Source of the DNA: Myxococcales bacterium
GTDB taxonomy: Bacteria > Myxococcota_A > Bradymonadia > Bradymonadales > Bradymonadaceae
Assembly (NCBI GenBank): GCA_007119175.1
Contig: SKQC01000363.1
Span: 1 to 41,773, forward strand
Length of the DNA: 41,773 nt
Direction: 5' to 3'
Shown: piece by piece, positions 1 through 18,244 of the stretch
How positions within the stretch are numbered: position 1 is the stretch's first letter
How the letters are laid out: every line of letters begins with the position of its first letter
The notes under the pieces: model-generated
What the model saw: the letters and a program-made list of their open reading frames with translations, nothing else
Database searches by the model: none
What the model was told of the DNA's origin: nothing
Made by a program: the position numbers and the translations under genes

Positions 1-102
1 AATCTGGGGGCCTTCTCCGTCGAGTTCGTCAAGGGTGCCGCCGACCCGGAATTCCGGGTCGGCGGCACCCTTGACGAACTCGACGGAGAAGGCCCCCAGA
101 TT
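1..102. repeat. Perfect 102-bp palindrome at the window edge
   Basis: Bases 1-51 are the exact reverse complement of bases 52-102, with no loop. The centre is CCGGAATTCCGG, which contains a GAATTC site. The right arm reads as sense codons of the gene that follows, and the left arm is the same segment inverted. A gapless palindrome of this length exactly at a sequence end is typical of a fold-back (inverted chimera) in amplified or assembled DNA, so everything left of about base 51 may not be genuine genomic sequence. Confidence 0.97.
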
Positions 103-534
103 GCCGAAAGCGGCGGTGGTGTCGGCGATATCACGCGCAGTGGCGGCGACTCTGAGGCCGGCCGACTCGACGCCCGCGAACGCCCAGAGGAGGTCCGCGG
201 CACAGTGCGCAACGTCAGCGCTCTTACCCAGGTGCAGGGAAGTTTGTCCCGCGATGATATTGAACGCGTCATTGGCCGCCATCAGGGGCGCATCACTGGC
301 TGCTATGAATCGGCGCTCAACGAGGACCCCAGTCTCGGTGGCCAGATCACCTTTCAGTGGACGGTCAATGCCGACGGTAGCGTCAGCTCCGCAAGCGAAC
401 AAACCAGCACTCTCGGCAGTGGCTCGGTTTCCAATTGCATCCTCAACATCATTCGCGGTATGGACTTTCCCAATCCCGATGGTGGAAGTTCTGTTGAGAT
501 CGCGTATCCCTTTGCATTCCAATCCGCCCATTGA
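1..534 (+). CDS. AgmX/PglI C-terminal domain protein, 5' partial
   Basis: Frame 1 is open from the first base to the TGA at 532-534, so this is the 3' part of a longer gene. The tracked ORF starting at GTG 205 is not the true start. The last ~100 residues have the AgmX/PglI C-terminal domain pattern: a helix with LSRDDIERVI, then a CYESAL element, a beta segment with a DGSV turn, and a second Cys in SNCILNII. In Myxococcus, proteins with this TonB-C-like domain (AgmX/GltJ, PglI/GltG) are inner-membrane proteins reaching across the periplasm in the gliding machinery. The Gly/Glu/Asp-rich stretch before it looks like a linker. The N-terminal part is outside the window and the first ~50 bases are suspect because of the palindrome. 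A lipoprotein gene follows after 36 nt, probably in the same operon. Family placement is good; a gliding role is inference. Confidence 0.8.
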   Translation, partial: NLGAFSVEFVKGAADPEFRVGGTLDELDGEGPQIAESGGGVGDITRSGGDSEAGRLDARERPEEVRGTVRNVSALTQVQGSLSRDDIERVIGRHQGRITGCYESALNEDPSLGGQITFQWTVNADGSVSSASEQTSTLGSGSVSNCILNIIRGMDFPNPDGGSSVEIAYPFAFQSAH

Positions 535-570
535 CGTCGTTTTATCCCTACTTTCGAGAGGTAAACTCCC

Positions 571-1089
571 ATGTCGTACCGCATTTCCGCCTCCTCTTTA
601 GCACTTTTGCTCGCTGTCGGTCTGATCGCATGTGGCGACGACGATGACGCCTCCGATATCTGCAGTGATCGCGAATTAGTACCCCACGTCTCTCCCGTCG
701 TTTTCGGCGAGCTCTCCGAGTCGCTGATCCCCCATGAATGGCACCTGTTATTGCACAATTCCTGCAATGCAGAAGTTACGATCGAGGAGGCCTGCCTGAT
801 CGGCGACGACGCCGACCAATTTGTGCTCGAAGGGCCAGAAAGCGACGTCGCAGTTCGCAATCAGGACAGCGTCCTGCGCCTTACCTATGAGCGAGAAAGC
901 ACCCATAGTGGCGACGATCAGGACGACCTCGCAATCGTCGTGCAATCCGATGCCGAGAATGCACCGACCATCGTTGTTCCCGTCTGTGCGCGTGTCGTCA
1001 GTGACCCCGATGAAGAAGCCGAGATGGAATGCAATTCGCCGATCGAGATTCCCGCCGAAGGTGAACGGGTCGACGGACTTTGCTCGTAG
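571..1089 (+). CDS. Small lipoprotein with ASH-like domain
   Basis: The product is 172 aa. A type II signal peptide ends in the lipobox LIAC (Cys21), followed by an acidic GDDDD linker, so it should be lipid-anchored in the envelope. Residues ~37-142 resemble the ASH/choice-of-anchor-D immunoglobulin-like fold common in secreted myxobacterial proteins: a VVFGEL strand, an HLLLHNSC strand, a DADQFVLEG loop, and a final strand ending in VPVCARV. Four cysteines after the lipid Cys could pair. A GAGAGG-like ribosome site lies about nine bases before the ATG. It probably shares a transcript with the AgmX-like gene, and a terminator follows about 150 bp after the stop. The specific function is unknown. 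Confidence 0.8.
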   Translation: MSYRISASSLALLLAVGLIACGDDDDASDICSDRELVPHVSPVVFGELSESLIPHEWHLLLHNSCNAEVTIEEACLIGDDADQFVLEGPESDVAVRNQDSVLRLTYERESTHSGDDQDDLAIVVQSDAENAPTIVVPVCARVVSDPDEEAEMECNSPIEIPAEGERVDGLCS

Positions 1090-1235
1090 TACTGAGCGCC
1101 GGAAGTACGCAGGTGACTGGACGACGAGGGCAAGCCGCAACACAGCCATCGTCATTCAGCACCGCCGAGAGTCGCAGCGTACTTTCCAAGGCTAGCACTA
1201 AATGCGCCCGGCCCCTGGCCGGCCCGTAAATAGCG

Positions 1236-1275
1236 CGGCCGGGATGCCCCCCTCGAGGGCTCCCGGCCGTTTTTT
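1236..1275 (+). terminator. Rho-independent terminator
   Basis: A 9-bp GC stem (CGGCCGGGA / TCCCGGCCG) encloses an inner 4-bp stem (GCCC/GGGC) and is followed by TTTTTT. It reads on the + strand, ending the AgmX-like/lipoprotein transcript. It sits between convergent genes; there is no U-tract for the opposite strand. The rest of 1090-1307 shows no gene. Confidence 0.85.
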
Positions 1276-1307
1276 GCGTTCTTGTGTATGTCGTTTAAGC
1301 CACCGGT

Positions 1308-1931
1308 TCAGCGTCTCGGTCGATCAAAGACCACATAAAAAGGCGTGACGTCACCACCTCCCCGGGCAAATGATGAGTAATCATTCCACCATTGCTGGGT
1401 CACCTGATCGAGACGCTCCATCTGCTGCATGATCTCACGATCAAGCTGCCGGGCTTCTTCCTTTTCGTCGTCGACGGCGTCCCGAATATCCTCCAGATCA
1501 TAGACTGCGCGATCATTTCGCACCGCTACCCGTGCCACCAGCAGTTCTAGTTCGGCTTCTGCCACGTCGATTTCAATCGCCGCTCGCTCCGCCTGAAGCT
1601 CCAGCAGATCCGTCCTCGCATCGAGGAGCTGATGAAGCGTGGTCACCAGCGCCGATGTGCCGTCAGGCCAGGTGCTATGTCGATTGATCTGGCGATGCCA
1701 CTGTTCCATGCGGACCAATTCAGCGCTTGCTTCGTCGTATTGAGCGCGAGCAACAGCGACCCGGTCTTGACCGTCGGCGATCAAGCGTCGATCGGCGGTG
1801 GGAACGCTGGGATCATGGATACTGATCGGATCAACTCCCGACGAGCAACCCAAAAGCAGAGCGATACAGCTCAGCATTATCCACCGGCTGTAGTCTGATA
1901 GTCGGAAACCATCGGCGCAATCACAACTCAC
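1308..1931 (-). CDS. Coiled-coil lipoprotein, last gene of TPR operon
   Basis: The product is 207 aa from a GTG start. The tracked ORF runs further upstream inside the preceding gene, but GTG at 1931 has a GGGAGG ribosome site six bases before it and overlaps the stop of the TPR gene, typical of translational coupling. ATG at 1877 is the alternative start. The N-terminus has a hydrophobic segment ending in LLLGC, a probable lipobox. The middle of the protein is Ala/Glu/Leu/Arg-rich and should form a long helix or coiled coil, and the C-terminus is short and non-helical. I do not recognise a family. It is the fourth gene of an operon with a beta-barrel and two TPR lipoproteins, which suggests a periplasmic stalk or adaptor in the same complex. 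Confidence 0.72.
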   Translation of the reverse strand: MSCDCADGFRLSDYSRWIMLSCIALLLGCSSGVDPISIHDPSVPTADRRLIADGQDRVAVARAQYDEASAELVRMEQWHRQINRHSTWPDGTSALVTTLHQLLDARTDLLELQAERAAIEIDVAEAELELLVARVAVRNDRAVYDLEDIRDAVDDEKEEARQLDREIMQQMERLDQVTQQWWNDYSSFARGGGDVTPFYVVFDRPRR

Positions 1932-4900
1932 GGCCACCCTCCCGTTCTGCGGAGTACCTCTCGGCAAGTTCTTCGACCAGATCAGACTGGCCATTTTCTC
2001 GAAGTATTCTCCCCAGATTTCGTTTGCCAGCCTGATTTCCGGCGTCAGCGGACCTCGAAAACGCCTCAAACGCTCTGCGAAGATCTCCCATCTCATAGCT
2101 CGCCACACCGACCAGGTTCATCTCCTCGCTGCCTCCGCCGGCGCTGACCGCCTGCTGAAATGCAAGGCGTGCCAGATGAGGATCGCCGCCGTCGAGTAAT
2201 TGAGTGCCCAGTGTGCGCAGGGCGTCGACATCGTCGGGATTTCGCGCCACACGCTCTCGCAGCTGCTCGGCGCCCTCGCCGAGCTCGATGCTGCGCCGCG
2301 AGCCGGGAGAAGCATATGTGGCAAGCGTTGCATCCCAGGGCTGACCCTGCAGGCATTGCTGGACGACATCGTCGAAGATATGACTGCTCCACAGCCGCGT
2401 CGAACACGCCTCAAGGGCCTCATCGACGGTCGCCTCGATGCGCTGGATGCGATCGTCGATTGCCCCCTGTAACTGCTCGCGTTGCTGAGAGTCGAGATCT
2501 GCGGGCAGCGACACGCGGGATAATTCACCGACGACATGCTGCATGGCATAGGCCAGCCGTGCGAAAGCGACCGTCGTATAGCGCTGGCTGCGCTGCCGGG
2601 CTGCGTTTAGATAATTTTGCTGAGTGACGTCGATCAGGGTGATATAGTCCTGAATGACTGTAAAATCTTCCAACTCCGGGAAGCGCTGCAAGGTCGCCAA
2701 CATCACCTCTGCGAGTCCGTAATGAGCGCGGGCCTCGGCTTCCGATGACGCTCCGGCAATGCCCAGTACCTGCTGAAAATACCCCGCTGCCTCATCAGGG
2801 TTGCCCTCGGCAAGCTGGGCGAGACCGAGGCGTACCAGCACTTCTGGCTGCCCCTCGTCTTCGTAGCGCACCAATTCGCGAAACACCTGCTGCGGCGATG
2901 CGCTCTGCTCGAGCAATTGCGCGTAGCTTCCCAGGGCCTGGGCACGGGCCTCCGGCGTCTCCGATGCGTTCAGCGCCTCGTGATAATAGCGCCGCGCCTC
3001 GTCGTATTCGCCCAGCTCCTGTTTGAGTTCTCCGGCAGCCGTTAAAAATCGCGTTCGCTGCTCTGGATCATAATCTCCGGCCCGCTCCAAAAACTCCACG
3101 CCGCGGTCGTATTCAAAGCGCCGCACCGCAGTCTGGGCCAACGAGGAGAAGATTCCCGATAGCTCGTCGCTGTCTGGATACGATGCCGCCAATTCATCGG
3201 CCATCTCATACATCTGCGCCGTATCACCGGAGGAGCGGGCGGCGACGAAAGCATTGAGCAATGCATTTTCTCCGGTCTCCGTTCCCGCGTGAACCTCGGC
3301 GAAATCCTGCAATGGCGTCAGATCGACGTCGTCATCACCGGCGGCCGCCAGCGTCAGAGCATCGAGCCGCTGCTGTTCGGCGACCTCGAGGATCTCCTCG
3401 ATATCGGTGCGCAAGCTACTGGAGGCCGGCGAACCGGATTGCAAAAACCGCTGGCTCGCCGCAATCAGGCCATCAAAATCGGTAATCGTCAAATAGCTGT
3501 CCAGCACCAGGCGAATTGCCTCTTCAGACTGGTCGGTGTCCGGGAATTGGTAGGCCACCAATCCCAGCTTGTCGATTGCCTCGTCATACTCTCCGGCATC
3601 GAAATGGCTTTCGGCAATCGCGAATTTAACTCGCTTTCGTCGATCTCCCTCCAGCCCCAACTCCAGTAATTGCTCACCGGCTGCACGCAGCGATGTCCTG
3701 GCGGTCACGCTTTCGAATTGACCGCGATCCGCCTCCCGCTCCAATGAGGTCTGAAAATTGACGACAGCATCGTAGAGGGCATCGGCTCGTTCCTCATCGT
3801 CGTCGATAAGGGTAGCGGCCTCCATGCCTCGCTGACCGGCTTCGAAGTTTCGGTCCTCAACCTCCAACACCTCCACCAGGTTGAGCAAAATCGAGACCCG
3901 CTCCTCGCTGTCGGGATAGGTGTCCAGGTGAGCCCGGTAGGCTCGCGCCACCTCTGCGGCTTGACGCTGCTCTTCTTCACCACTGGCCTGATTCATTTTC
4001 TCCTGGGCCTCCGTCGACAGGCTCCGGACGTAGACCTCAAACTCCTCGAATAAACCGACCGCTTCGCTCTCCTCAATTGAGATCTGACCATGGTAGTTGG
4101 TCAGCGCCCTGTTTATCAGTTCCACATCGGAGGCGACGGAGTCATAATCTCCCAGTTCGTTTAGCGACGTAAACAGAGTGCGGGCATCCTCCAGTCGATC
4201 AAAGTCGGCATGGCCGTAGTTGAGCAATTCTCTAGAGACGTCTCGTGCCCCTTCGAATTCATCGTGCAATCGGTATCGACGAGCCAGACGGTGAAGGCCA
4301 GCCACGTAAGTGGGACGATTATTGGCCCATTCCCGGTAATAGGCGATGGCGTCTTCCGGCTGGCGTTCCTGGCTGTAGCAATAGCCCAGATCGACAAGCG
4401 AGTTGCGTTCGACATCGATGGATTGATCGACGCCCGGCAATCCCTCCAATGCCGCCAAGTTGACCTCATCGCCCGCCAGATACTCCTCCCAGTCCGCCAT
4501 CGCCCCCATTGCCGACTCGAAGAAATCAAGGGCCTGTTCGCAATCGCCATCGTTAATCGCCACCCAGGCCATCTTGTATTGAGCCAGACCGGATGCCGAA
4601 TTGAGCTCGTCGTCGATAATTTGTTCGTAATAATGAGCGGCTTCCGACATCTCGTGCTGATCGAATTCATAGTCCCCAAGCACGATCAGCGCCTGGTGGC
4701 GAAGCAGACTGTCCGGATATTCAGCGACCAATCGCTGCATGGCCGTGCGCATCTCATCATAATTTCCCAGTTCCCGATGCTCATGGCCCATATTGAACAA
4801 CATCCGCGGTGCCTCCGCGCTGTCTGGAAAGCGGCGCAGAGTGGTCTGGTAGATGTCGATGGCGTCGTTTTTCAGCAGGCGCACCTCCGGCACGTATAGA

Positions 4901-5199
4901 TCGGCCTGTGCCTCTCCGCTTTCGCGAAGCCGGGCCAACTGATAGTGGTAGCGAGCCTCTTCGCTGAGCAATTCGGCAAGTCGCATATACAACTCGGGCA
5001 AATACTCCGCTCCCTGCGACCAGGCGATGGTCTCTCGGGTCTCGTCGACCGCATTTCGCACCTGGGCAATTCGCAGGCGCAGTGACTCCACCTCTGCTGT
5101 ATCTTGAGCCTCAAACGACGGTGTTGAGCAGCCGGCCACCGGGCCCAGAGCCAACACGGCCAGCAAACCGCCAACGACCAGATAGATCACTCGATGCAT
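1921..5199 (-). CDS. Large TPR lipoprotein
   Basis: The product is 1092 aa. A signal peptide ends in PVAGC (Cys24), a good lipobox. Nearly the whole mature protein is helical with degenerate tetratricopeptide repeats: recurrent A..YY/A..Y helices and BamD/YfiO-like FPDS turns spaced through the protein (for example near residues 125, 160 and 430), and clear repeats at ~690-830 and ~990-1080. TPR arrays are protein-protein scaffolds; with a lipid anchor this one should act on the periplasmic face of the outer membrane. The start overlaps the stop of the upstream TPR gene by 13 nt. In Myxococcus, large TPR proteins (AgmK/GltI, AglT/GltE) belong to the gliding apparatus, and the barrel plus TPR arrangement here resembles that. 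Direct orthology is not claimed. Confidence 0.85.
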   Translation of the reverse strand: MHRVIYLVVGGLLAVLALGPVAGCSTPSFEAQDTAEVESLRLRIAQVRNAVDETRETIAWSQGAEYLPELYMRLAELLSEEARYHYQLARLRESGEAQADLYVPEVRLLKNDAIDIYQTTLRRFPDSAEAPRMLFNMGHEHRELGNYDEMRTAMQRLVAEYPDSLLRHQALIVLGDYEFDQHEMSEAAHYYEQIIDDELNSASGLAQYKMAWVAINDGDCEQALDFFESAMGAMADWEEYLAGDEVNLAALEGLPGVDQSIDVERNSLVDLGYCYSQERQPEDAIAYYREWANNRPTYVAGLHRLARRYRLHDEFEGARDVSRELLNYGHADFDRLEDARTLFTSLNELGDYDSVASDVELINRALTNYHGQISIEESEAVGLFEEFEVYVRSLSTEAQEKMNQASGEEEQRQAAEVARAYRAHLDTYPDSEERVSILLNLVEVLEVEDRNFEAGQRGMEAATLIDDDEERADALYDAVVNFQTSLEREADRGQFESVTARTSLRAAGEQLLELGLEGDRRKRVKFAIAESHFDAGEYDEAIDKLGLVAYQFPDTDQSEEAIRLVLDSYLTITDFDGLIAASQRFLQSGSPASSSLRTDIEEILEVAEQQRLDALTLAAAGDDDVDLTPLQDFAEVHAGTETGENALLNAFVAARSSGDTAQMYEMADELAASYPDSDELSGIFSSLAQTAVRRFEYDRGVEFLERAGDYDPEQRTRFLTAAGELKQELGEYDEARRYYHEALNASETPEARAQALGSYAQLLEQSASPQQVFRELVRYEDEGQPEVLVRLGLAQLAEGNPDEAAGYFQQVLGIAGASSEAEARAHYGLAEVMLATLQRFPELEDFTVIQDYITLIDVTQQNYLNAARQRSQRYTTVAFARLAYAMQHVVGELSRVSLPADLDSQQREQLQGAIDDRIQRIEATVDEALEACSTRLWSSHIFDDVVQQCLQGQPWDATLATYASPGSRRSIELGEGAEQLRERVARNPDDVDALRTLGTQLLDGGDPHLARLAFQQAVSAGGGSEEMNLVGVASYEMGDLRRAFEAFSRSADAGNQAGKRNLGRILRENGQSDLVEELAERYSAEREGGREL

Positions 5200-6632
5200 C
5201 GGTCCTCCAACGGTACGATCAGGTCGTCGATTTCATCGGTCCAGAACTCTCCGCCGAACTGAAAATAAACCTGCTCTCCTCCTCTCGGCACCTCAAATAT
5301 TGCGCTCGGGGCTGTTCCCTCCACGCGGTCGCGACCGCGCAGCAGGGTGACGCTGATCTCGTGCAGCACCAATTGCACCCCCTGCTCGGCCTGCAGCAAT
5401 TCCGCGGCGAGAGCCTCTGTTTCATCTCGAAGATGCTCCCGCTCGCGCCGATCGGCCTCTTTTAACCCCCGCTGATATAGCGCGGTCAATGCGTCGGTCA
5501 GATTTTCCCCAAGGTCCGAGGCGTACTCGTTGACCAGTTGGAGTTCTAACTCCAGGCGGGCTCGATGGTCGGCCACCGGCTGGCTTACTTCACGGAGCCT
5601 GGCCGCCGCGCGAAGGGCATCGGAATCCTGCAACGACATTCCACTATGCAGATCATCGAGGGCCTCACCGTACTGCGCTCCCAGTCGAACCGCAGCAATC
5701 CGGGCCGGCTCAAACTGACACAGGCGCTGAAGATTGAACGCCTCCAATAAAAATCGCTCCGGAGCAATCAGATCACGATAGGCCGGAGCGTCGAGTGCCA
5801 GCAGTAGTCCCAGCGATCGACGGTGATTGTTGAGATAATATTTGGTCCAGGCCATCTCCAGCAACAACTGCGGATCATCGGGCGCGGTCTGCCGAATCTC
5901 TTGATAGCGATCCAATGCGTCTTCGAATTCCTCTTTTTCAAAGGCGATCCGCGCCAGGCTGCGTTGAATATTGGAGTGGATATCGTCGGGCAGATTGTCC
6001 TCGTATTCCTCGAGGATCATTTCCATCTCTTCGGCCGCCTCGTCGAGGCGATAATCGGCGAGCATTTCCACGGCTAATACATAGCGTGCCCGTGCTTTAT
6101 AAGGGCTTTCGTCGGGGATCTCGCTAAAATAATCGCTGGCCCACTCAGGATGGCCCTGCCGCAGGTTGTGACGCCCCTGGTAGAAGGCAACAAGAGCACT
6201 TGCTTCGTCACCAAAACTCGGCATCTCTGCGGTGGCCAAAAATCCGTCCACCAGTGTCCACTGGTCGTGGGGGTAATTCTCAATAACCTCTGCCAGGCCA
6301 AGGATTGCGTCTTCGACCAACTCTGCATCGCGACGGGCCGAAGCGATATCGTGGTACCACAACGCAGCCGCGTGACTCAGCTCCAACTGCTTGAGGTTGT
6401 CGGCCATCAGGCGGCCCGCCCTGTCGTAGCGGGAGTCGTCGACTGAGCCGGTGCGCTGGTATTGATAGGCCGCCCGTGCGGCCAACGCCGCATCGCCCTC
6501 CAGCGACGCCTCCACGGCCTGCGAGAAGAGATCGTCTCGCTCTTCGGCAAGCTGCACTCCTCCACAGCCCATCGCCAATAGCAGGACCACCACCAATCCA
6601 TATGCGAATGTCATCGACGGCGCATTGTTCAT
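5187..6632 (-). CDS. TPR lipoprotein
   Basis: The product is 481 aa. I chose ATG 6632, four bases after the stop of the barrel gene; the tracked start at 6677 would lie inside that gene. The signal peptide ends in LLLAMGC (Cys23), a probable lipobox. The body is an alpha-helical TPR-like array, with recognisable repeats around ~150-290 such as YLNNHRRSLGLL and FEKEEFEDALDRYQEI. A long charged helix at ~380-425 may be a coiled coil. A short C-terminal beta-rich segment (~430-481) contains YFQFGGEFW. It is co-transcribed with the barrel and the large TPR lipoprotein and is likely a periplasmic partner of the barrel. No specific family name can be assigned. Confidence 0.8.
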   Translation of the reverse strand: MNNAPSMTFAYGLVVVLLLAMGCGGVQLAEERDDLFSQAVEASLEGDAALAARAAYQYQRTGSVDDSRYDRAGRLMADNLKQLELSHAAALWYHDIASARRDAELVEDAILGLAEVIENYPHDQWTLVDGFLATAEMPSFGDEASALVAFYQGRHNLRQGHPEWASDYFSEIPDESPYKARARYVLAVEMLADYRLDEAAEEMEMILEEYEDNLPDDIHSNIQRSLARIAFEKEEFEDALDRYQEIRQTAPDDPQLLLEMAWTKYYLNNHRRSLGLLLALDAPAYRDLIAPERFLLEAFNLQRLCQFEPARIAAVRLGAQYGEALDDLHSGMSLQDSDALRAAARLREVSQPVADHRARLELELQLVNEYASDLGENLTDALTALYQRGLKEADRREREHLRDETEALAAELLQAEQGVQLVLHEISVTLLRGRDRVEGTAPSAIFEVPRGGEQVYFQFGGEFWTDEIDDLIVPLEDRCIE

Positions 6633-6636
6633 CGGA

Positions 6637-7281
6637 TCAAAATCCCAGCGACATGCCAAGTGCGATCGACAATTCATCTAGATACGACAAATCCTCGAAG
6701 AACTGGTCGTCCGGAAACATCAGGTACCGAACGTCGAGTCGAGTTGAAAATCTCTCATTGAAAAACAACCGCACTCCCGTACCCAGGCTCAATCCGGGGC
6801 GCTGGCTGCGGGTAAACCACCCGTAGGCGCCTCCAACGGTCAGCAAAAGCTCTCCACGAGCCAAACTGTCATTGAGCCAGGAGCCTTTCCAGTACAGCGG
6901 CTTAAACACCAGATTCGACGTCACATAATAGTCGAGGACCTCGAATGGGGACGGAAAAATGTCCATGGCCTCGAGCTGACCGCTGAGCCGGGTGTCAAAC
7001 TGAAAGGAGTAGTGGAACTGCGCCACCTCCCAGCCCACCAATTCACTAAAGTGAAGCGTATAACCACCGGATACGGTCACCCCGCGGGTAAATGCATCGA
7101 GCGGAAGAAGTCCCACCGTCCCACTTAGCTCATGGCGTTGAAAATACTGTCGGTCCTGAACGACCAGTGACGAGTATGGACGCAGCCCATCGTCATCCTG
7201 GGCGGTGGCGGTGGCGGGCAAAAAGAGGAGACTGATCACGATGGAGAACAGCACCAGCCCTACGCATGTCGACCTGATCAT
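6637..7281 (-). CDS. Outer-membrane beta-barrel protein
   Basis: The product is 214 aa from ATG 7281, which has GGAG eight bases upstream. The tracked start at 7314 precedes the signal peptide. The cleavable signal peptide ends near TATAQ. The mature part shows alternating hydrophobic/polar beta strands and ends in a C-terminal Phe (MSLGF), the usual signal for insertion into the outer membrane. Length and pattern match the short outer-membrane beta-barrel family widespread in myxobacteria, which includes barrels of the gliding complex. It is the first gene of the four-gene operon, so the promoter should lie in 7282-7575. A transport or anchoring role is inferred from context. Confidence 0.8.
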   Translation of the reverse strand: MIRSTCVGLVLFSIVISLLFLPATATAQDDDGLRPYSSLVVQDRQYFQRHELSGTVGLLPLDAFTRGVTVSGGYTLHFSELVGWEVAQFHYSFQFDTRLSGQLEAMDIFPSPFEVLDYYVTSNLVFKPLYWKGSWLNDSLARGELLLTVGGAYGWFTRSQRPGLSLGTGVRLFFNERFSTRLDVRYLMFPDDQFFEDLSYLDELSIALGMSLGF

Positions 7282-7575: not shown

Positions 7576-8064
7576 ATGTATCTATCATCGAATACATTCC
7601 GATCTGCGTGGCTCACCATTGTCGGTTTGGCAATAATGAGCCTGAGCTGCATTTCCGACGAGTCGGTATTTACCCAGGATCGTCTCGAAGCGTTATGTGA
7701 CCAGTCGCTTCCCATGTGCTCCACTCAGGGATCCTGTGTTCTCGATGAAACTACTTATGTCAGAAATATTTTTCCCGGCGGCTTTCGATCCATTGTTCGC
7801 AATGACTTCGACGAAGAGACATTGGTGGTCCGAATTCTCCTTACGGAGACCATAGCGCCGGGAACCGAATTGCACGTGGAGTTGCAGTCGTCCGATTGTG
7901 GGCAGATCGAAGAGGAACGCATTGCTGACGTCGATCTCTTTGAGGAGTCGGGCTCGGACCGCACTTTTACCTTTGAACTCGACTTTCACGACGACGGAGA
8001 CCACTTGCTTTCGGTCTTCTCAGATATGAATGCCGAGTATCTGCTCAGTGTCCAGCCGGAGTAA
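7576..8064 (+). CDS. Small putative lipoprotein
   Basis: The product is 162 aa. The N-terminus has a hydrophobic stretch ending in MSLSC (Cys25), a weak but plausible lipobox. Three further cysteines lie at ~41-54, and the C-terminal ~90 residues are predicted beta-rich, with a charged FELDFHDDGDHLLSV segment. It resembles no family I can name. It stands alone, divergent from the barrel operon and convergent with the acidic-repeat lipoprotein only 38 bp away, with no obvious terminator between. The ribosome site is weak. Confidence 0.65.
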   Translation: MYLSSNTFRSAWLTIVGLAIMSLSCISDESVFTQDRLEALCDQSLPMCSTQGSCVLDETTYVRNIFPGGFRSIVRNDFDEETLVVRILLTETIAPGTELHVELQSSDCGQIEEERIADVDLFEESGSDRTFTFELDFHDDGDHLLSVFSDMNAEYLLSVQPE

Positions 8065-8102: not shown

Positions 8103-9047
8103 TTAGCTGTCGTCACCGGCGTCCTCGCCGACGTCTGGCTCACCGCCTACATCATCCTCGTCGCCGACGTCTGGATCGTCGCCTACATCATCCTCGTCGC
8201 CGACGTCTGGCTCACCGCCTACATCATCCTCGTCACCGACGTCTGGCTCACCGCCTACATCATCCTCGTCACCGGTATCGGGTCCGACATCAAGTTCTGC
8301 ATCCGGTTCCGGCTCGGCATCCAGCTCGGGCTCGGCATCCGGTTCCGGATCGGCATCGAGCTCCGCGTCTAATTCGGGCTCAGCATCCGGTTCCGGATCG
8401 GCATCGAGCTCCGGTTCGGCGTCGAGCTCCGGTTCGGCGTCGGGCTCCTCGCTGACGTCGGGCAGATTTGGGCCTGGAGGAGTGACATCGCCAATATCCG
8501 GAAGTACTGGAGCGTCAACGTCCGGTGGGGGCAAATACTCTACATCGCTGCGGTCGATAAAGCCGACGTCCAACAACTCCTCTTCCGGCTCAAAGACATC
8601 GTCGATGATCTCCAGCGAACCCTCGAAATCTCCGGCCAGCGTCACCGACGTGCCGCCGGTGTCGATCTGGGCGGAAAAGTCCCCGCTAACTTCGGCACCG
8701 TCGGCTTCGCGAAACTCATCGAGGTGTATCTCTCCACCTGTGGCATCGGGAATCACAGTGGAGCCGCTCTGGCCGGAGACGGTTCCCTGCTGTGGAATCT
8801 TATAAGAACCGGCCCCATCCTGAAGCTCATCGGCATCGACGATCACGCGCACCGGCACCTGCCCGTTTTCGCGAAAATACTCGACTGACAACTCCGATGA
8901 ATACAAGCGAATGCGCACATCGTCAAAACTGCCGTCGTAGGTGTCGAGCAGGCTGCCGTCGAGCGAACCGGCCCCGGAGGAACTATCGCAGCCCACGGTG
9001 GCTGCAATAAGGAGACCACAGCCGGCAACGACTAAAATTTGCTTCAT
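8103..9047 (-). CDS. Lipoprotein with acidic tandem-repeat tail
   Basis: The product is 314 aa from ATG 9047; TTG 9068 is the alternative start. The signal peptide ends in ATVGC. Residues ~25-165 form a compact beta-rich domain with a DEF..ADG..VSGDFSA pattern and an FEGSLEIID strand, seen in form in other myxobacterial lipoproteins but not named by me. From ~190 onward the protein is almost only D, E, P, G, V and A: first EPELDA-type repeats, then four copies of a 12-residue unit (GDEDDVGGEPDV). The tail is highly acidic, probably disordered, and could bind divalent cations. It is the last gene of the surface-protein operon, starting 32 bp after the stop of the propeller-like gene. The acidic tail suits the calcium-binding theme of the operon, but that is inference. 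Confidence 0.75.
   Translation of the reverse strand: MKQILVVAGCGLLIAATVGCDSSSGAGSLDGSLLDTYDGSFDDVRIRLYSSELSVEYFRENGQVPVRVIVDADELQDGAGSYKIPQQGTVSGQSGSTVIPDATGGEIHLDEFREADGAEVSGDFSAQIDTGGTSVTLAGDFEGSLEIIDDVFEPEEELLDVGFIDRSDVEYLPPPDVDAPVLPDIGDVTPPGPNLPDVSEEPDAEPELDAEPELDADPEPDAEPELDAELDADPEPDAEPELDAEPEPDAELDVGPDTGDEDDVGGEPDVGDEDDVGGEPDVGDEDDVGDDPDVGDEDDVGGEPDVGEDAGDDS
8130..8273 (-). repeat. Four tandem 36-bp coding repeats
   Basis: Exactly four 36-bp units (8130-8165, 8166-8201, 8202-8237, 8238-8273) encode a 12-residue acidic unit. The last two are identical, the first differs by one base and the second by a few. The neighbouring 8290-8450 holds a less regular EPDAEPELDA repeat. Copy number is likely to vary between strains. 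Confidence 0.95.
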
Positions 9048-9079: not shown

Positions 9080-10537
9080 TTAGTCGACGGCGTCTCGCCG
9101 TGCCATCCGAATTTCGGTAGAGACCGTTTCCGCCTCTTCATCATAAACCTCACAGCGATAACTCACCACCGGTTCATCGCCGTCGAACAGCAGCGAAGGC
9201 CGCTGCCCGCATGCGGCGAGACTTTCCCCAGAATCGATTTCCTCGTGAGACCACGTACCGTCTTCCCGATAGGCAAAAATCACCGCTGTGTCCTCGGCAG
9301 CGCAATCCCCAAGTCCATTGGCGGCCACCGTACAGCGATAATAGGCAGCGGCGAGCGTTCCCTGTGGCGACTGGGCAAGCGACGGACTATAGCCCTCGTC
9401 GTAAGTGGAGTCACCGATCGTACTTCCATCGGTAAACTCCCAGGCGCTGGCCGATTCAAATTCCTCCCACTCTTTCAGCGACGCCATTCGTGGCGTTCCC
9501 AATTCGCTGTCATAAAACATCACATGAAGCTCGCCAGTATCCGGATCGAGGACGACCCCCGGTTCTTCTTCATTTCCCTGATTAAAGAGCTGGACCTGTT
9601 TCCACTCCCCGTCGACTCGCCAGGCGACCCAGTATCCCAGGCGCTCCTCGATATTGCTCTCCGTCGGTGTGTAATAGGCAATGATCGGCTCGTCGTCATC
9701 ATTGAAGAGCAACCTGTTGTACTGGCCGGCCCCGTTGGCCCATTCCACCGCTTCGGGCTCCCAACTTCCCCCGGTGCGGTGAACGAATTCCAGATCGGCT
9801 CGACGAAAATCATCTACCTGAAGGCCCCCGAAATGCACGTCGCGATAGGCGACGGCGGGCTGATTTTGAGAATCGAAGGCCAAACCGGGGTGATATCCGA
9901 CGACATACCCGGCATCGGCGGCCGCATGACCTGTCGCCGCCTCATCGCTCGTCGACACCGCCGTTTCGTGACTCCAGTCGCCCTCTCCCTCCCGATACAA
10001 CACGCCGACGTCATTGACTCCGCAATACTCTACCATCTGGGAGATCGGCTCCCCGGTCATCGTCACCACTACCGCCTGGCCCTCTGCGTCGTATCCCAGA
10101 TCCAGCCCCTGAGGGGCACTGAGAAAGGGTTTTGCGTGGATCAGCTCATCACTCCAGTCGCCCCCCGGTGAGCGCTCCATATAGTGAAGCGGCCACAGCA
10201 CGCGGTTGGGCGGCTCGTCCATATCAAGCTCGTCGCAGGGCTCACCGGTCTCGGGAGTCATCTCAAAAAACGCCAGCCCAATCGTACCGTCGTCACTTCG
10301 GGCCATTCGGAGTTGAAAGCCCGCCTCCTCATCAAAGGGAACGGTCTCCGTCTCCCAGGGATCCTCGACAGGATCGGGGCGAGGCGGAGGATCGTCATTT
10401 TGATTCTGATTTACCTCCTCTTGCTCTTCCTCCCCGCAGCCCATCACCGCTACCCCTACAACCAGTGCTGTACACAGGCTGAGTGCGACTACCGCTAAGG
10501 CATATCGCATGTTTGGTCGTTTTCGTTGATCACGCAT
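9080..10537 (-). CDS. Propeller-like lipoprotein
   Basis: The product is 485 aa. ATG 10537 has GAGG seven bases upstream and a basic n-region, which I prefer to ATG 10510; it overlaps the end of the PPC-repeat gene by 43 nt. The lipobox is VMGC. An acidic/Pro-rich linker (~35-65) leads to a domain with at least five recurrences of a D..G.P.VAY motif (for example SQNQPAVAYRD, DDEPIIAYYT, GDEPVVSYRC). These are the blade-like repeats of sialidase/WD40-type beta-propellers common in secreted myxobacterial proteins. No catalytic Asp-box set is evident, so a binding role is more likely than an enzymatic one. It is the fourth gene of the VWA/TSP3 operon. Confidence 0.72.
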   Translation of the reverse strand: MRDQRKRPNMRYALAVVALSLCTALVVGVAVMGCGEEEQEEVNQNQNDDPPPRPDPVEDPWETETVPFDEEAGFQLRMARSDDGTIGLAFFEMTPETGEPCDELDMDEPPNRVLWPLHYMERSPGGDWSDELIHAKPFLSAPQGLDLGYDAEGQAVVVTMTGEPISQMVEYCGVNDVGVLYREGEGDWSHETAVSTSDEAATGHAAADAGYVVGYHPGLAFDSQNQPAVAYRDVHFGGLQVDDFRRADLEFVHRTGGSWEPEAVEWANGAGQYNRLLFNDDDEPIIAYYTPTESNIEERLGYWVAWRVDGEWKQVQLFNQGNEEEPGVVLDPDTGELHVMFYDSELGTPRMASLKEWEEFESASAWEFTDGSTIGDSTYDEGYSPSLAQSPQGTLAAAYYRCTVAANGLGDCAAEDTAVIFAYREDGTWSHEEIDSGESLAACGQRPSLLFDGDEPVVSYRCEVYDEEAETVSTEIRMARRDAVD

Positions 10538-12606
10538 GGCGGTTCCTCACAGATATCGGAGACTTTCTCGATGCAAAAGCGGTATTGTTGATCTGGATCC
10601 CACGCTCGGGTGTCCTCGTTGACGGTTCGTCCGTCCTCCAGCAGCTCCAGGCGATCACGAACCAAAATATAATAGTCGTCATCGTCGTGGTGCTGTGATG
10701 AATACAGACACTCATTGCCCGGGTCCAGCCCTCCCAGTGTCATACTCCGGGCCGGGTGGCTATCCTCGTAGTCGCTAAATACCAGGGTATGCCACAGCGA
10801 TGTTCGGTTGTGCAGATTCATGACGTAATCGACTGGACCGGCATCGATTTCGTAATGGAAGGCAATAGTGCAGTCCTCCTCAGGACAGGGGTGTTCGTAG
10901 CGAAACCAGTCCATGTCGTTTTGGTAGCCCACACTGCCAGTGATCCAGTCCCCGCTGCCACAGCACTCTGGCTCATCACCGGTGCAGTCGAGCACATCGA
11001 CGGTCGTTGCAAATGCTTGGTTCTCTGAGATTGGAAGAGAACTTTCCACCTCGTTGGTAAACAGGTTATTCGGCTCGTTGGTGTCGGGATTGTCGCGGAT
11101 CCGTACCTCCAGATCGTAGCGAAGCTGAGGCTGTGCGGCCTGAGATTGAAAGTCGCTGGCACGCAGATAAATGGCGTCGCCGCCGAAAATCGGCGCCGAT
11201 ATCACCGCCCGGTTGCGATCCGGTCTCGTATCTGGCGAGGCGACGCACTCCGGGAGAAAATCGGGGCAGTCATAGCGTCGCTGTACTTGATTTCCCCCAC
11301 ATACCCCTTCCTGCAAACACGATCTGGGTGCCGCACAGGTATTTGTCGATGGATTGCATTGCTCGTTATAACCCGCGCAATCGAGCTCGTCGGCGCAGGG
11401 AAGCTCCAAAAATTCGCAGTCGTCATCCGCTTCACAGGGGCTCTCATGGTGGGGACGTACCATCATCAGATTGGCCTGTAATTCGTGGGAGAGATCCCAT
11501 TTTTCCTCATTTGATAGGTCGTCGGTATCAAAGACCATCTCCGCTTCCAATAGCCCGTTTTCACATCCCTCGATGGGGATTCGAAACCAGTCGATATCAC
11601 CGGGCGCACTGATCGTTCCCCAGGTGCTCAAGGTCTCGCTCCACCCGGAGCCGCAACTGACCGCAGACTCGCTCAGGTCGGTGGCTTGCTCAGGCGTGTC
11701 ATTCGGTTCGTTTGGATCGATATCTTCGATGATGTCCAGGGTCAGCTCGTAGGGCGTCTCGAGGTCGGCGTCGACGTCGTCCATATCTCGAACCACCACG
11801 AAGTAGGTTCCGGCTCCCTGCACGGCGACCAGGCGCTCAATTTCCGTCGCTTCCGTTTGCGACGATGCATTCTCCACTGTAGCCAGCACCTCGCCGTCGT
11901 CGCTGTGGACCTCGGCTTCGATCTGATATTGCAGCGGATCTGCTTCCAACTGCAGATGCAATAATTCACGATCGTCGAGATCGATTGAGTACCAGTCCTC
12001 GTCTCCTCGACAGGCGATATAACCCTGTGTGGTGTCTCCATCCTGTACCTGGGTGGCCTCTTCGGCAGTGTTATTGGGCTCGTTGCCGTCGGGATTTGCC
12101 CGGGTATCGATCTCGAGTTCATAGTGGTGATTAAAATCCTGGTTATTCTCCGTGTAATCGCGAAGGGCCACCAGGTAGTCCCCTGGCTCCAGACACTCCA
12201 ACGCCTGTAATGGCTGGGGCATACCGATCTCGTCGAGATTGGCACGGGCCACCACTTCACCGGAATCACCTCCCTGATCTTCGTAGATGGAGTACGTCAG
12301 TTCCACCGGCGTAAGCCCGGTACTCATCCCCGCCGAGATATCAATGATGGGTTCAGCGGCCTCAAGGGAAAACGAATACCACTCCTGATGACCGACCGGG
12401 CAGATATAGCCGGTCGTCACCTCACCAATGCTAAGTGAGGCCGCATCCTCGGGGGTATTATTATCTCCGCGCTCACACTGCACGGAGGGGTCTTCGTTAT
12501 TCGGATCGCCATTTTCCCCCTCTCCGTTTTCCGTGCACGCCACGGCAAATAAAAGAAGAAGAGAAAGGACGAACCATTTATGGCCACAGACAATGCTCAT
12601 CGGCAT
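10495..12606 (-). CDS. Lipoprotein with four PPC-like domains
   Basis: The product is 703 aa. ATG 12606 lies next to a GGGGAG ribosome site (ATG 12600 is also possible) and overlaps the VWA gene by 29 nt. The lipobox is AVAC. Four units start with an EPN(D/N)T-like motif (~47, ~170, ~295, ~525), continue to a DWY/DWF strand and end in a Y-x-L-x-strand: the pre-peptidase C-terminal (PPC) domain pattern, a beta-sandwich often involved in surface binding. Between the third and fourth units, at ~385-460, is a Cys-rich insertion with about a dozen cysteines in a C..DDDC / CADELDC pattern, probably a disulfide knot. There is no peptidase domain, so the PPC modules are not accessory to a protease here. 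It is the third gene of the operon. Confidence 0.78.
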   Translation of the reverse strand: MPMSIVCGHKWFVLSLLLLFAVACTENGEGENGDPNNEDPSVQCERGDNNTPEDAASLSIGEVTTGYICPVGHQEWYSFSLEAAEPIIDISAGMSTGLTPVELTYSIYEDQGGDSGEVVARANLDEIGMPQPLQALECLEPGDYLVALRDYTENNQDFNHHYELEIDTRANPDGNEPNNTAEEATQVQDGDTTQGYIACRGDEDWYSIDLDDRELLHLQLEADPLQYQIEAEVHSDDGEVLATVENASSQTEATEIERLVAVQGAGTYFVVVRDMDDVDADLETPYELTLDIIEDIDPNEPNDTPEQATDLSESAVSCGSGWSETLSTWGTISAPGDIDWFRIPIEGCENGLLEAEMVFDTDDLSNEEKWDLSHELQANLMMVRPHHESPCEADDDCEFLELPCADELDCAGYNEQCNPSTNTCAAPRSCLQEGVCGGNQVQRRYDCPDFLPECVASPDTRPDRNRAVISAPIFGGDAIYLRASDFQSQAAQPQLRYDLEVRIRDNPDTNEPNNLFTNEVESSLPISENQAFATTVDVLDCTGDEPECCGSGDWITGSVGYQNDMDWFRYEHPCPEEDCTIAFHYEIDAGPVDYVMNLHNRTSLWHTLVFSDYEDSHPARSMTLGGLDPGNECLYSSQHHDDDDYYILVRDRLELLEDGRTVNEDTRAWDPDQQYRFCIEKVSDICEEPPCVINENDQTCDMP

Positions 12607-14689
12607 CAAACTCCCCGACCTCGACGAAATCGTCTTCGGTCAAATGTACTTTTCCTGATGGTGGATTTTTATAATCGCCGTCGGGATCGTAATTCGCCAT
12701 TACACAGGCGAAACGATAGGTCCCGGACGCCGATGGATCATCGTATGGAACTTCACTGGTATACAGCAGAATTCGGTTCCAGTTATTTCCCGGATATACG
12801 GCCCGCTTATTCGGCAGGGTGGGTACCAGGGTAATATTGCTGACTCGATACTGATAGCAGGTCTGGGGCCCGGAACGTGGAATCTTTTCGGTCTGGTAAC
12901 GATATGCGACCTGTGAGCGGACATGATTGCTATCGCAGCGCGGGTCGGTATTGGCCAGCACCTCTTGCTTATTGGTCACCCCATTTAACGAATAGTCCTC
13001 GTGAGTATCGTCTCGTGTCGGGTCGGTACGGAAACGGGCTTCCACAAAATCGGGCAGACCGTCGCCGGCGGTGTCGACACCGCGCTGTGAGGTGCCGAAA
13101 TAGACCTCCTCACAATCGTGCATTCCATCGCCGGTTCGGTCTGCGTAATCGCAGCGACCGTCGCCGTTTAAGTCCGGACAATCACAGAGACCGTCTTCGT
13201 TGTTGTCGACGCAATCACGGCCGTATTCGCTTAGACACGGGGTATCGGGATCGGTGACACAGTCGCAGATCCCATCGCCATTAGAGTCGAAGAGGCAATC
13301 ACAGAGGCCGTCTCCATTGGAGTCGATACAGGGCGGTGGGATGTAACAATCGGAGTCATCGGGATCGAGGGGATCGAGGCCCGAGTCCCGAAAGCGCCAT
13401 TCCAGATAATCGCTGAGACCATCTCCGTCAGTGTCACGGTCAAGAGGATCGGTGCCGATGGAAAACTCCATCATATCTGCCAATCCGTCGCCATCGGTAT
13501 CGATAAGCGGCTCGCCGCACTCGGGCACCCCGCTTCCATTGACGTCGACGAATAGCTCGGGCTCCAGCAACCCCTCCCGGACCTGGGTGGCTAAATCGAG
13601 CTCTTCTGATTCCTCCTCTTCTTCCGAAGCATCGCCGTTTTCTTCTTCGTCTTGTGGCTCCTCCGGTGGCAGATCAGCGGGCCGAAAGGGGATATCGTCA
13701 TCGGGAACCACGATTTGCTCACTGTCGACGACGGTATTTAGATTCGTCGCCCCGAGCGTCTCCAATGTAAAAATCCGGCGTAGCTCCGTGAACTCGGCAA
13801 AGAGAAAATTGAGCTCGCCCTGGTTTTCAAACCCCCGGTAGTTGCCGCCGCCGACCTCCGCCATATCGCTGAGAAGCGCCTCCGCCTGGTCGTCAACCAC
13901 GGCCACTCCGGTGGATAAAAAGGCGGTGTGGAACGAAAACTCACCGACCCGGAAGGTATTGGCCAGATCGACCATGGCGTCGACGGAGTCCATGATCCGG
14001 CCGTGGGTCTGTTCCCGCCCTTCCCCGCCGTCGACATTGGGGATGCCGTCGGAGAGGAAAATGACCATATATTTGCTCAGCGGTAGTGATTCCAGGCTCT
14101 GATCGAGAAGTTCTGTGCGGAGCTGAAAATACCCCTCATCCAGAGCATTGAGGTAGTTGGTGGTGGCCGCCGTCTCGCGCAGCGCAGCGGTTCCCTCAAG
14201 GAGCCGATCGCGATCGTCGGTAAAATAATCAGTGGGTAACCCCGTGTCGTCGTCGATGATAGCCACCGTCGACTGTGATTCGCCATCAAAGCGATTGATT
14301 CCGAATTCCACCGCCCCCGGAGCTTCGTCAAGCAGTCGCTCCCAGGTCTCTCGCACGGCCCGTTCGCGGTTCGTCTCCCCCGTCACTGGATCGGGGGGAT
14401 CGACGACCTCCATAGAACTGGAGGTATCGACGATAAACAAAACTCGCATTGGAAACCGCAGCTCATCGGGGGGACTTGTGCAGATCTCGCCGCGAATTTC
14501 CAGCTTGTCGTCGCGATGGACCTGCTCGCTTGGTCCCTCTTCAAGATCCGCGTCAGTACAGGTAATGATCGCCGGCGACAGGGCCACTGCCGCCAGCAGA
14601 AATATCGCGGCCGGCCAGCGCCATAAGTCCCGGCGCCACTTATTGGTGTGCTGCAAGCTCACGTTCGCAATTCCTCGTCGTAGCGTCAT
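12578..14689 (-). CDS. VWA and TSP3 repeat surface protein (paralogue B)
   Basis: The product is 703 aa. The start overlaps the upstream stop as ATGA. A basic N-terminus and hydrophobic segment end in IITC, a poor but possible lipobox. The VWA domain (~80-310) has a full metal-ion-dependent adhesion site: DTSSS at 88-92, a Thr in the middle and FLSDG. An acidic Glu-rich linker follows, then at ~370-600 a row of calcium-binding TSP3-like DTDGDG / DSNGDG repeats with interspersed Cys pairs. The last ~100 residues form a domain shared with the neighbouring paralogue (CYQYRVSNITL, an NR..LYTSE turn, FACVMANYD). VWA plus TSP3 suggests a Ca2+/Mg2+-dependent adhesin. The VWA lipoprotein CglB of Myxococcus is an adhesin of gliding, a possible functional analogue. 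Confidence 0.82.
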   Translation of the reverse strand: MTLRRGIANVSLQHTNKWRRDLWRWPAAIFLLAAVALSPAIITCTDADLEEGPSEQVHRDDKLEIRGEICTSPPDELRFPMRVLFIVDTSSSMEVVDPPDPVTGETNRERAVRETWERLLDEAPGAVEFGINRFDGESQSTVAIIDDDTGLPTDYFTDDRDRLLEGTAALRETAATTNYLNALDEGYFQLRTELLDQSLESLPLSKYMVIFLSDGIPNVDGGEGREQTHGRIMDSVDAMVDLANTFRVGEFSFHTAFLSTGVAVVDDQAEALLSDMAEVGGGNYRGFENQGELNFLFAEFTELRRIFTLETLGATNLNTVVDSEQIVVPDDDIPFRPADLPPEEPQDEEENGDASEEEEESEELDLATQVREGLLEPELFVDVNGSGVPECGEPLIDTDGDGLADMMEFSIGTDPLDRDTDGDGLSDYLEWRFRDSGLDPLDPDDSDCYIPPPCIDSNGDGLCDCLFDSNGDGICDCVTDPDTPCLSEYGRDCVDNNEDGLCDCPDLNGDGRCDYADRTGDGMHDCEEVYFGTSQRGVDTAGDGLPDFVEARFRTDPTRDDTHEDYSLNGVTNKQEVLANTDPRCDSNHVRSQVAYRYQTEKIPRSGPQTCYQYRVSNITLVPTLPNKRAVYPGNNWNRILLYTSEVPYDDPSASGTYRFACVMANYDPDGDYKNPPSGKVHLTEDDFVEVGEFDADEHCLWP

Positions 14690-16867: not shown

Positions 16868-18244
16868 TCAGGCCTCGGCAGGCTCTGTTCGGGGCCGACG
16901 GATTGCGAACAATCCGAAGAGAGCGAAGACCAATGCAAGCGTGGTCCCACCAGCGCCACCAGTCGACGAGCAGGAAGAGGGCTCTTCTGGAAGCTCACCA
17001 GCTTCCCCGTCGACGGTAATGGTGCTCGTCGCCGTCGCCGTCTGGTTGAGTTCACCGGTGACCCGGTCTTCCCAGATGGTTTCGACTTCCAGCCTCACTT
17101 CGTACTCACCGGGCAGATCGGCCATCAGATGCGGCACGTCATCGCCGACGTATCGATACTCGAAGGGAGTGGAAATAGTGGTCGTCCCGTTGGGGTCGAC
17201 AATACGAGCATCGGAGCCGTCGGGCGCCGAGGTCAGAGACCACTGATAGCGAAGCGCCAGGTTGCGTTGATTGGCGAAAAGGCGCAGGCGAACCGGTGTT
17301 ACCGTCTCACCGAGCATCGGCGGGCTATAAGCGTATAGCGGCTGCTCTGGGTCGAGGCAGTTATCGTGGTCGCCATCGACGACGAAACAGAAGGTGTCAT
17401 CACAGGCATCGCCGACACCGTCGCGATCGGAGTCGGTTTGGTCGGGATTGTACTCATAGGGGCAGTTGTCGAATTCATTGGGAATGCCATCGCCGGAGAT
17501 ATCCGAGCTGCAGGCATCGCCAATTCCGTCGCCAGCCATATCTTCCTGGTCGGGATTGTAGTGGTTCGGGCAGTTGTCGAGATGATCGTAGACCCCGTCG
17601 CCCGACGAGTCGCGGAAGCAGGAGTCGCTATCGGGAGCATCTTCGGTATCGGGATCCCAGACCACGAACGGGCAGGGATCTTCCTCGTTGGGAATTCCGT
17701 TTCCGTTGATATCATCGGAGCACGCATCGCCTACGCCATCACCGGAGGTATCTTCTTGCTCCGGGTTAAATACGTAGGGGCAATTATCTTCCTCATTGGG
17801 AATGCCGTCGCCGGAGATATCCGGGTCACATGCATCGCCGATGCCATTGCCGTTCGTGTCGGTCTGGTCGGGGTTGTTATGATCGGGGCAGTTATCACAG
17901 GCATCACCGACGCCGTCACCGGAGGTGTCGGTCTGGTCGGGGTTGTATTCAAATGGACAATTATCGAAGCTGTCACCGACACCATCGCCGCTATAATCGT
18001 CCTGGGACTGATAGGCGTCACCCAGGTCGGTGTTGGCGATCAGGATCGACCCGCCGCCACCGCCGTTTCCACCGCTTAGCTCGGGAGTTCCGCAATCATC
18101 AAATCGCGCATCGCACTCAAACGGTGGATCATCATCGTCTTCGCCTTCTTCTTCCTCCTGATTATCGGCCAACACGACCGATGGCGCCGTGAACGCTGTT
18201 GCCGCAAAAAAAGCACAGAAAAGAAATATCAAGTTCTTCTTCAT
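16868..18244 (-). CDS. TSP3/PKD-like protein with MYXO-CTERM-like tail
   Basis: The product is 458 aa. ATG 18244 has GGGAGA eight bases upstream. The cleavable signal peptide ends near VVLA. An acidic N-terminal segment is followed by a Gly-rich run and about ten TSP3 repeats (~75-285) with motifs such as SGDGVGD, DNCP and NPDQTD. In most repeats a Ser or Asn replaces the canonical second Asp. A PKD/Ig-like domain (~310-415) has RYQWSLTSAP and GEYEVRLEVE strands. The last 36 residues are a three-part sorting signal: a Ser/Cys/Gly-rich motif with a single Cys (SSCSS), a ~15-residue hydrophobic helix, and an Arg-rich end (IRRPR). This resembles MYXO-CTERM, which is processed on the way to the cell surface. 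Calcium-stabilised, surface-anchored protein. Confidence 0.85.
   Translation of the reverse strand: MKKNLIFLFCAFFAATAFTAPSVVLADNQEEEEGEDDDDPPFECDARFDDCGTPELSGGNGGGGGSILIANTDLGDAYQSQDDYSGDGVGDSFDNCPFEYNPDQTDTSGDGVGDACDNCPDHNNPDQTDTNGNGIGDACDPDISGDGIPNEEDNCPYVFNPEQEDTSGDGVGDACSDDINGNGIPNEEDPCPFVVWDPDTEDAPDSDSCFRDSSGDGVYDHLDNCPNHYNPDQEDMAGDGIGDACSSDISGDGIPNEFDNCPYEYNPDQTDSDRDGVGDACDDTFCFVVDGDHDNCLDPEQPLYAYSPPMLGETVTPVRLRLFANQRNLALRYQWSLTSAPDGSDARIVDPNGTTTISTPFEYRYVGDDVPHLMADLPGEYEVRLEVETIWEDRVTGELNQTATATSTITVDGEAGELPEEPSSCSSTGGAGGTTLALVFALFGLFAIRRPRTEPAEA

Follow-up and report, generated by a model that had tools for sequence, protein, structure and literature searches.

A distinct lineage of Glt-type trans-envelope machines associated with Mts-type surface proteins in a Bradymonadaceae bacterium and its possible role in cohesion

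The contig SKQC01000363.1 of a Myxococcales bacterium (Bradymonadaceae; assembly GCA_007119175.1) begins with a locus that we interpret, with a probability of roughly two in three, as a separate branch of the proton-driven trans-envelope machines of the Agl-Glt/Nfs class, one specialised for Mts-type surface adhesins. The window, i.e., the whole stretch analysed, is this entire contig of 41,773 nucleotides (G000:C461). The homology of the parts to Glt proteins, their conserved order and their co-occurrence with the surface proteins are established. Diversification of the Agl-Glt/Nfs class is believed to have followed cargo, gliding and spore-coat roles being the only ones shown, and a standalone core of the class is without known function (PMC3169522, PMC3858216). 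The genes of the locus in the window, called with a simple script and with lipoboxes read by eye, are the following.

52-534, plus strand: C-terminal part of A, a periplasmic tail with an AgmX/PglI domain (NF033768; full-length orthologues in L039-L042)
571-1089, plus strand: B, a lipoprotein with one predicted Ig-like beta-sandwich of the PapD/ASH type (lipobox LIAC; AlphaFold; Foldseek)
1308-1931, minus strand: C, a short helical, coiled-coil-like lipoprotein, last gene of the operon (lipobox LLGC)
1921-5199, minus strand: D, a GltD-like TPR lipoprotein of 1092 amino acids (hhalign to GltD)
5187-6632, minus strand: E, a GltC-like TPR lipoprotein, 496 amino acids as first called (hhalign to GltC)
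6637-7281, minus strand: F, an 8-stranded, GltA/GltB-like outer-membrane barrel (TIGR04565, hhalign, AlphaFold, Foldseek)
7576-8064, plus strand: H, a small conserved exported protein (orthologues adjoin the operon in relatives)
8103-9047, minus strand: lipoprotein with an Asp/Glu/Pro-rich C-terminal repeat tail (adjacent orthologues in L040-L044, L069, L073, L114, L212, L215 and L217)
9080-10510, minus strand: surface-type lipoprotein assigned to no family (phylum search)
10495-12600, minus strand: lipoprotein with PPC-like domains (PF04151, sub-threshold; orthologues in linked clusters)
12578-14662, minus strand: MtsD-like lipoprotein with a VWA domain, MIDAS motif DTSSS and TSP3 repeats (NF047639, 138 bits)
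14686-16770, minus strand: MtsD-like lipoprotein with a VWA domain, MIDAS motif DQSYS and TSP3 repeats (NF047639, 182 bits; PF13519, 30.4 bits, cut-off 27)
16868-18244, minus strand: MtsC, a TSP3-repeat protein with a C-terminal MYXO-CTERM-type anchor (NF047638)

The preliminary description of positions 1-7281, made from the letters alone, had seen an AgmX/PglI gene converging on a four-gene operon of a barrel, two TPR lipoproteins and a coiled-coil lipoprotein. All open reading frames reported there were found in place, and domain scores, lipoboxes and the barrel model agree with this reading. On the minus strand, F, E, D and C overlap or sit at most 5 bases apart and thus form one operon, on which the A tail and B converge from the plus strand. 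The suggested Glt-type character of the parts also held in a part-by-part hhalign comparison, for which the Glt reference sets were the relatives' own paralogous canonical Glt-type loci and the NCBIfam models. Against the relatives' sets each protein matched its own counterpart best, with far weaker cross-matches: the barrel F matched GltA (E-value 1.7e-15) and GltB (4e-12), the TPR protein E matched GltC (2e-21 over 394 columns), D matched GltD (5e-50 over 921 columns) and the A tail matched GltG (4e-24). F passes the OMP_myx_plus model TIGR04565 (63.2 bits, cut-off 60), and its AlphaFold model is an 8-stranded barrel (predicted local distance difference test, pLDDT, 83) whose closest solved structures are NspA, OmpA and OmpX. 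The A tail is well above the AgmX/PglI model NF033768 (99 bits, cut-off 40), while the Glt-specific models score far below their cut-offs, with 38 bits against 450 for E on NF033756 (GltC), and 101 bits for the window's A tail (86-101 across the window and relatives) against 650 on NF033760 (GltG). Among the lipoboxes, LAMGC and VAGC belong to the two TPR proteins, and E probably starts at 6632 rather than at 6677, judging from an alignment.

The window starts at a contig end, which cuts A. Bases 1-102 are a perfect inverted repeat with a 100% self-match, 1-51 being the inverted copy of 52-102, and contig C175 of the same genome terminates in a near-copy of this palindrome that keeps the reading frame (94% over 35 bases). 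The most likely account is therefore a break and fold-back of the assembly at a natural palindrome, with some 17 artefactual codons at the start of the window (ahead of about base 52) and the motor genes directly upstream. The genes on C175 run from a third MtsD-like protein through TolQ, TolR1, TolR2 and a small exported protein (S) to 948 residues of A. The rows that belong to this junction are:

1-51 of the window, no strand: assembly fold-back, non-biological (inverted self-match of 1-102; C175 continues the reading frame)
L208:15622-16179, on C175: TolR1, with Asn in place of the proton-carrying Asp
L208:17155-19998: the C175 portion of A, continuing into the window

G009, G010 and G133 have this order without a break, and in G002 the two halves lie apart, with motor-A-B at 2.35 Mb and F-E-D-C at 2.12 Mb. 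TolQ (PF01618) and two ExbD proteins (PF02472) are encoded upstream of A in relatives as on C175, and since TolQ, both TolR proteins, S and the N-terminus of A are all on C175, the machine has its own motor. The proton-site residue is Asn in every TolR1 whose start was read and Asp in every TolR2; a TolR with Asn at this site is also found in other Glt-type motor loci of relatives (L050, L055). The idea of a reduced or alternative trans-envelope machine is supported, but the machine is not cut down to a few parts, since its motor is on the adjoining contig. Likewise, the genes assigned to 1-7281 stand, but the boundary does not, because the conserved block runs to about 18244 in the window and over about 8 kb on C175. 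That the AgmX-like domain might belong to an unrelated TonB system is refuted by the GltG-like protein next to TolQ-TolR-TolR and by the score of its tail on the TonB C-terminal model TIGR01352 (14 bits, cut-off 27.1). What the locus shares with the TonB/Tol-Pal force transducers is an ExbB/TolQ-type motor and a bitopic protein whose membrane helix contains His (SxxxH-type in several A proteins); unlike in those systems, the C-terminal domain is AgmX/PglI, not TonB or TolA, and no receptor or Pal is linked.

In relatives, the N-terminal protein-kinase fold of A is joined by a long linker to a single membrane helix, which the AgmX/PglI tail follows. The kinase head scores above the PF00069 cut-off in L039 and L040; of the five relatives read, four have HGG and one HGD in place of the catalytic-loop HRD, and this genome, whose motifs were read by eye, has HDD, the catalytic Asn and the Lys of VAIK being altered too. 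The heads of most copies should thus be inactive kinases, as predicted from these motifs. Myxococcus GltG carries an FHA head (PMC3169522). FHA-type heads of A, recognised by eye, are found only in basal relatives (G027, G093, G336, L079 and the Nitrospirota loci L078 and L085), and profile searches between the kinase head and the membrane helix gave no significant match to an FHA remnant.

Neighbourhood conservation, the absence of which had been proposed as a refutation, is extensive. The window comes from a metagenome-assembled genome (MAG) whose order has 26 members among the genomes compared. In a phylum set of 379 genomes, the E profile, whose match defines a machine-positive genome, matches 25 genomes of about 12 families, and a scan of genome contigs adds MAGs with E, including two of Thermodesulfovibrionia. 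E is followed by D in 31 of 31 loci and preceded by F in 28 of 29; where sequence extends beyond D, C comes next in 21 of 25 loci. Comparable loci span many Myxococcota families and Nitrospirota MAGs, and the Nitrospirota locus L085 repeats the arrangement motor-A-F-E-D-9080-like-MtsD-like. In a tree of the GltC family all E proteins form one clade (support 99/99), separate from the relatives' GltC copies. Of the loci, only the basal L079, L120, L121 and L123 have GltE, and basal loci also keep a second barrel, which suggests that the window's machine is a derived, trimmed lineage. This genome (L045-L047) and its relatives hold separate, far more canonical Glt-type loci; in G002 the NCBIfam scores are 212-342 bits for GltC, 110 for GltE, 413 for GltG and 158 for GltJ. 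Up to three further Glt/Nfs-type loci per genome were observed in this order (L045-L055), namely a zinc-ribbon GltJ type, an FHA GltG type and a third type, which includes a motor and long GltC-like proteins.

Judged by gene content, the lineage is distinct from the canonical Glt/Nfs-type loci in having no GltE and in carrying a kinase-like head instead of FHA. With Agl-Glt of Myxococcus xanthus (AglRQS, GltA-K; PMC3169522) it shares the TolQ/TolR/TolR motor, the GltG-type AgmX/PglI protein, the GltC and GltD TPR proteins, the GltA/B barrel and VWA surface lipoproteins as candidate end effectors. Unlike Agl-Glt, in which two or three barrels and an FHA head occur and CglB is the surface protein, the locus has one barrel, a kinase-like head, a clade of its own, scores far below the NCBIfam Glt cut-offs and linked MtsC/MtsD-type proteins, and GltE, GltH, GltI, GltJ and GltK were not found in it. 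Nfs (NfsA-H; PMC3858216) is likewise a paralogous set of Glt-type core parts whose task at the surface is not gliding, but the present locus is without NfsE/GltE, has its own motor genes in the cluster and no linked spore-coat or polysaccharide genes. Six of the seven parts of the standalone Agl-Glt core (AglRQS with GltC, D, E and G; Luciano 2011, PMC3169522) are present; the differences are the lack of a recognisable GltE, the place of which is occupied by C, and the linked surface proteins.

The preliminary description underestimated the machine in one further respect, as Mts-type surface proteins in the same window point to cohesion or adhesion rather than gliding. The six genes downstream of F, at 8103, 9080, 10495, 12578, 14686 and 16868, recur with the machine. 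The last encodes MtsC, which scores 458 bits on the equivalog model NF047638 (cut-off 350; model positions 22-427 of 428); full-length MtsC occurs in 21 of the 25 machine-positive and in none of the 25 machine-negative genomes tested, partial matches elsewhere being TSP3 repeat arrays. The MIDAS motifs of the 12578 and 14686 proteins are intact, and both are, by profile comparison, similar to MtsD without being orthologues by the equivalog standard. The 12578 protein is found in 23 of the 25 machine-positive genomes and in none of the 354 others (Fisher P 8e-35, uncorrected for phylogeny); completeness is 75% and 67% in the two machine-positive genomes that lack it. Machine and 12578-like genes are on different contigs in G027, G093, G138 and G174, so their co-occurrence does not reflect linkage or hitch-hiking alone. 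Matches to the 9080 protein were found in 23 genomes, of which 21 are machine-positive and the other two matches are weak and partial. The machine and the MtsD-like, MtsC and 9080 proteins are all missing from four congeners of this genome. The locus thus resembles the mts cohesion genes (NF047638 MtsC, NF047639 MtsD) in its MtsC orthologue and its VWA/TSP3 MtsD-like lipoproteins; in contrast to them, its MtsD-like proteins are distant and come in two or three paralogues, and a dedicated motor machine is linked. The third MtsD-like VWA/TSP3 protein (L208:12668-14740, G000:C175) lies directly upstream of TolQ and has a degenerate MIDAS motif, DESNG; this copy adjoins TolQ in many relatives too. 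The acidic repeat tail of the 8103-9047 lipoprotein is long and varies in length among relatives.

A sentence in PMC11980579, citing Zhang 2007, gives MtsC (spelt MstC there) a part in cell-cell cohesion, S-motility and development. Because Mts-type adhesins are tied to the machine and MtsC has been described in cohesion, we propose a proton-driven cohesion machine. In this proposal, a TolQ pentamer would surround an axle of TolR1 and TolR2, of which TolR2 alone keeps the protonatable Asp, and the proton gradient would drive A through its membrane helix. The cytoplasmic head of A, with its kinase fold and decayed catalytic motifs, is probably a docking or switch domain that replaces the FHA domain of GltG. 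The periplasmic AgmX/PglI tail would reach the outer membrane and engage the lipidated TPR proteins D and E and the barrel F, with B and C as putative accessories. Force could then pass via D, E and F to the VWA/TSP3 MtsD-like lipoproteins, the MYXO-CTERM protein MtsC and the 9080 and 10495 lipoproteins, which would be displayed, positioned or tensioned so that cell-cell or cell-surface cohesion is promoted. There are precedents for such an output, as AglRQS-Glt ends in the VWA adhesin CglB (PMC13104615) and AglRQS-Nfs moves spore-coat glycan (PMC3858216). In its strongest form, that of a dedicated proton-powered cohesion machine which pulls or relocates TSP3/VWA adhesins, with a pseudokinase, fused to its force transducer, as the switch, the proposal is tentative, and we rate it somewhat below even odds. 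If it is true, cohesion would be a third task of the Agl-Glt/Nfs class beside gliding and spore-coat assembly. The near-perfectly co-occurring surface proteins name testable cargo or end effectors for one machine lineage and suggest a motor behind Mts-type cohesion, while the pseudokinase points to a cytoplasmic control head of a kind new to force transducers.

Several points weigh against a machine specialised for Mts-type adhesins. Complex formation, force and cohesion are what we infer from the genes. The 12578 and 14686 proteins are far under the NF047639 equivalog cut-off of 800 bits, the co-occurrence counts are uncorrected for shared ancestry or for transfer as one island, and the cohesion phenotype is taken from the one citing sentence above and the NCBIfam names. 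The genome comparisons took in no Myxococcus genome, which bears on the linkage of mts genes with a Glt-like motor in M. xanthus.

Other functions would fit the same parts. The architecture is shared with Agl-Glt, which recruits a VWA adhesin, and a gliding machine with moving focal adhesions, in which the MtsD-like VWA lipoproteins take the role of CglB, is made conceivable by their weak matches to the NCBIfam CglD model (33-42 bits) and by MglA/MglB-like genes downstream in one relative (L067). Nevertheless, we consider gliding unlikely, as this genome and its relatives have separate loci nearer to canonical Glt, GltI, a GltJ-type zinc ribbon and GltE are missing at the locus, MtsC is annotated as a cohesion protein, and Nfs shows that such parts alone need not mean motility (PMC3858216). 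Slightly less probable again is that the machine exports or assembles the Mts-type lipoproteins, moving them across the outer membrane or along it, instead of exerting force on adhesins already there. The tight linkage of machine and surface lipoproteins would agree with it, as would a weak, sub-threshold match of E to the TPR domain found in assembly factors for surface lipoproteins of the Slam type (27.9 bits, cut-off 35.2) and the proposal that Glt/Nfs machines carry various cargoes, possibly proteins (PMC3858216). However, the modelled barrel is small, of the 8-stranded OmpA/OmpX type, and should have no protein-sized pore, and myxosortase and the type II system handle MYXO-CTERM proteins (PMC11980579). 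An Nfs-like spore-coat or exopolysaccharide machine, the Mts neighbourhood of which would reflect joint inheritance only, is very improbable: apart from Glt, the glycan-moving Nfs is the relative studied best, and genomes commonly contain several Glt-like copies (PMC3169522), but the conserved block has no recurring polysaccharide genes and the Mts-type proteins co-occur with the machine even when unlinked. We therefore favour a machine acting on Mts-type surface adhesins.

Among the smaller proteins, C, B, H and S had no Glt counterpart in profile comparison with the relatives' Glt-type loci. C was considered as a shortened GltE, but its alignment covers mainly the signal region (17% probability), and it coexists with a separate, real GltE in L079, L120, L121 and L123, so it is not GltE. 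A GltD-GltE fusion is not claimed for D either, since its C-terminal GltE match (E-value 3e-7) resembles generic TPR similarity, and S fits the position of GltF without a significant profile match. B, with orthologues in at least ten loci, is predicted to be a single Ig domain of the PapD/ASH type (pLDDT 81, predicted template modelling score 0.74), its Foldseek matches being PapD-type chaperones and the ASH domains of HYDIN and CEP192 (E-value ~1e-5).

Scans for promoters and terminators gave nothing above chance. In the one MAG with L067, an MglB-like roadblock protein and an MglA-like small GTPase (17269-18351) lie downstream of F-E-D-C, with a response regulator just before them. Elsewhere in the window, 18767-21364 encodes a PgpH-type 7TM-HD phosphohydrolase (PF07697/PF07698/PF01966), and a gene for 1252 amino acids at 33221-36979, with a low-complexity start, lies within a region of strong positive AT skew (0.14-0.25).

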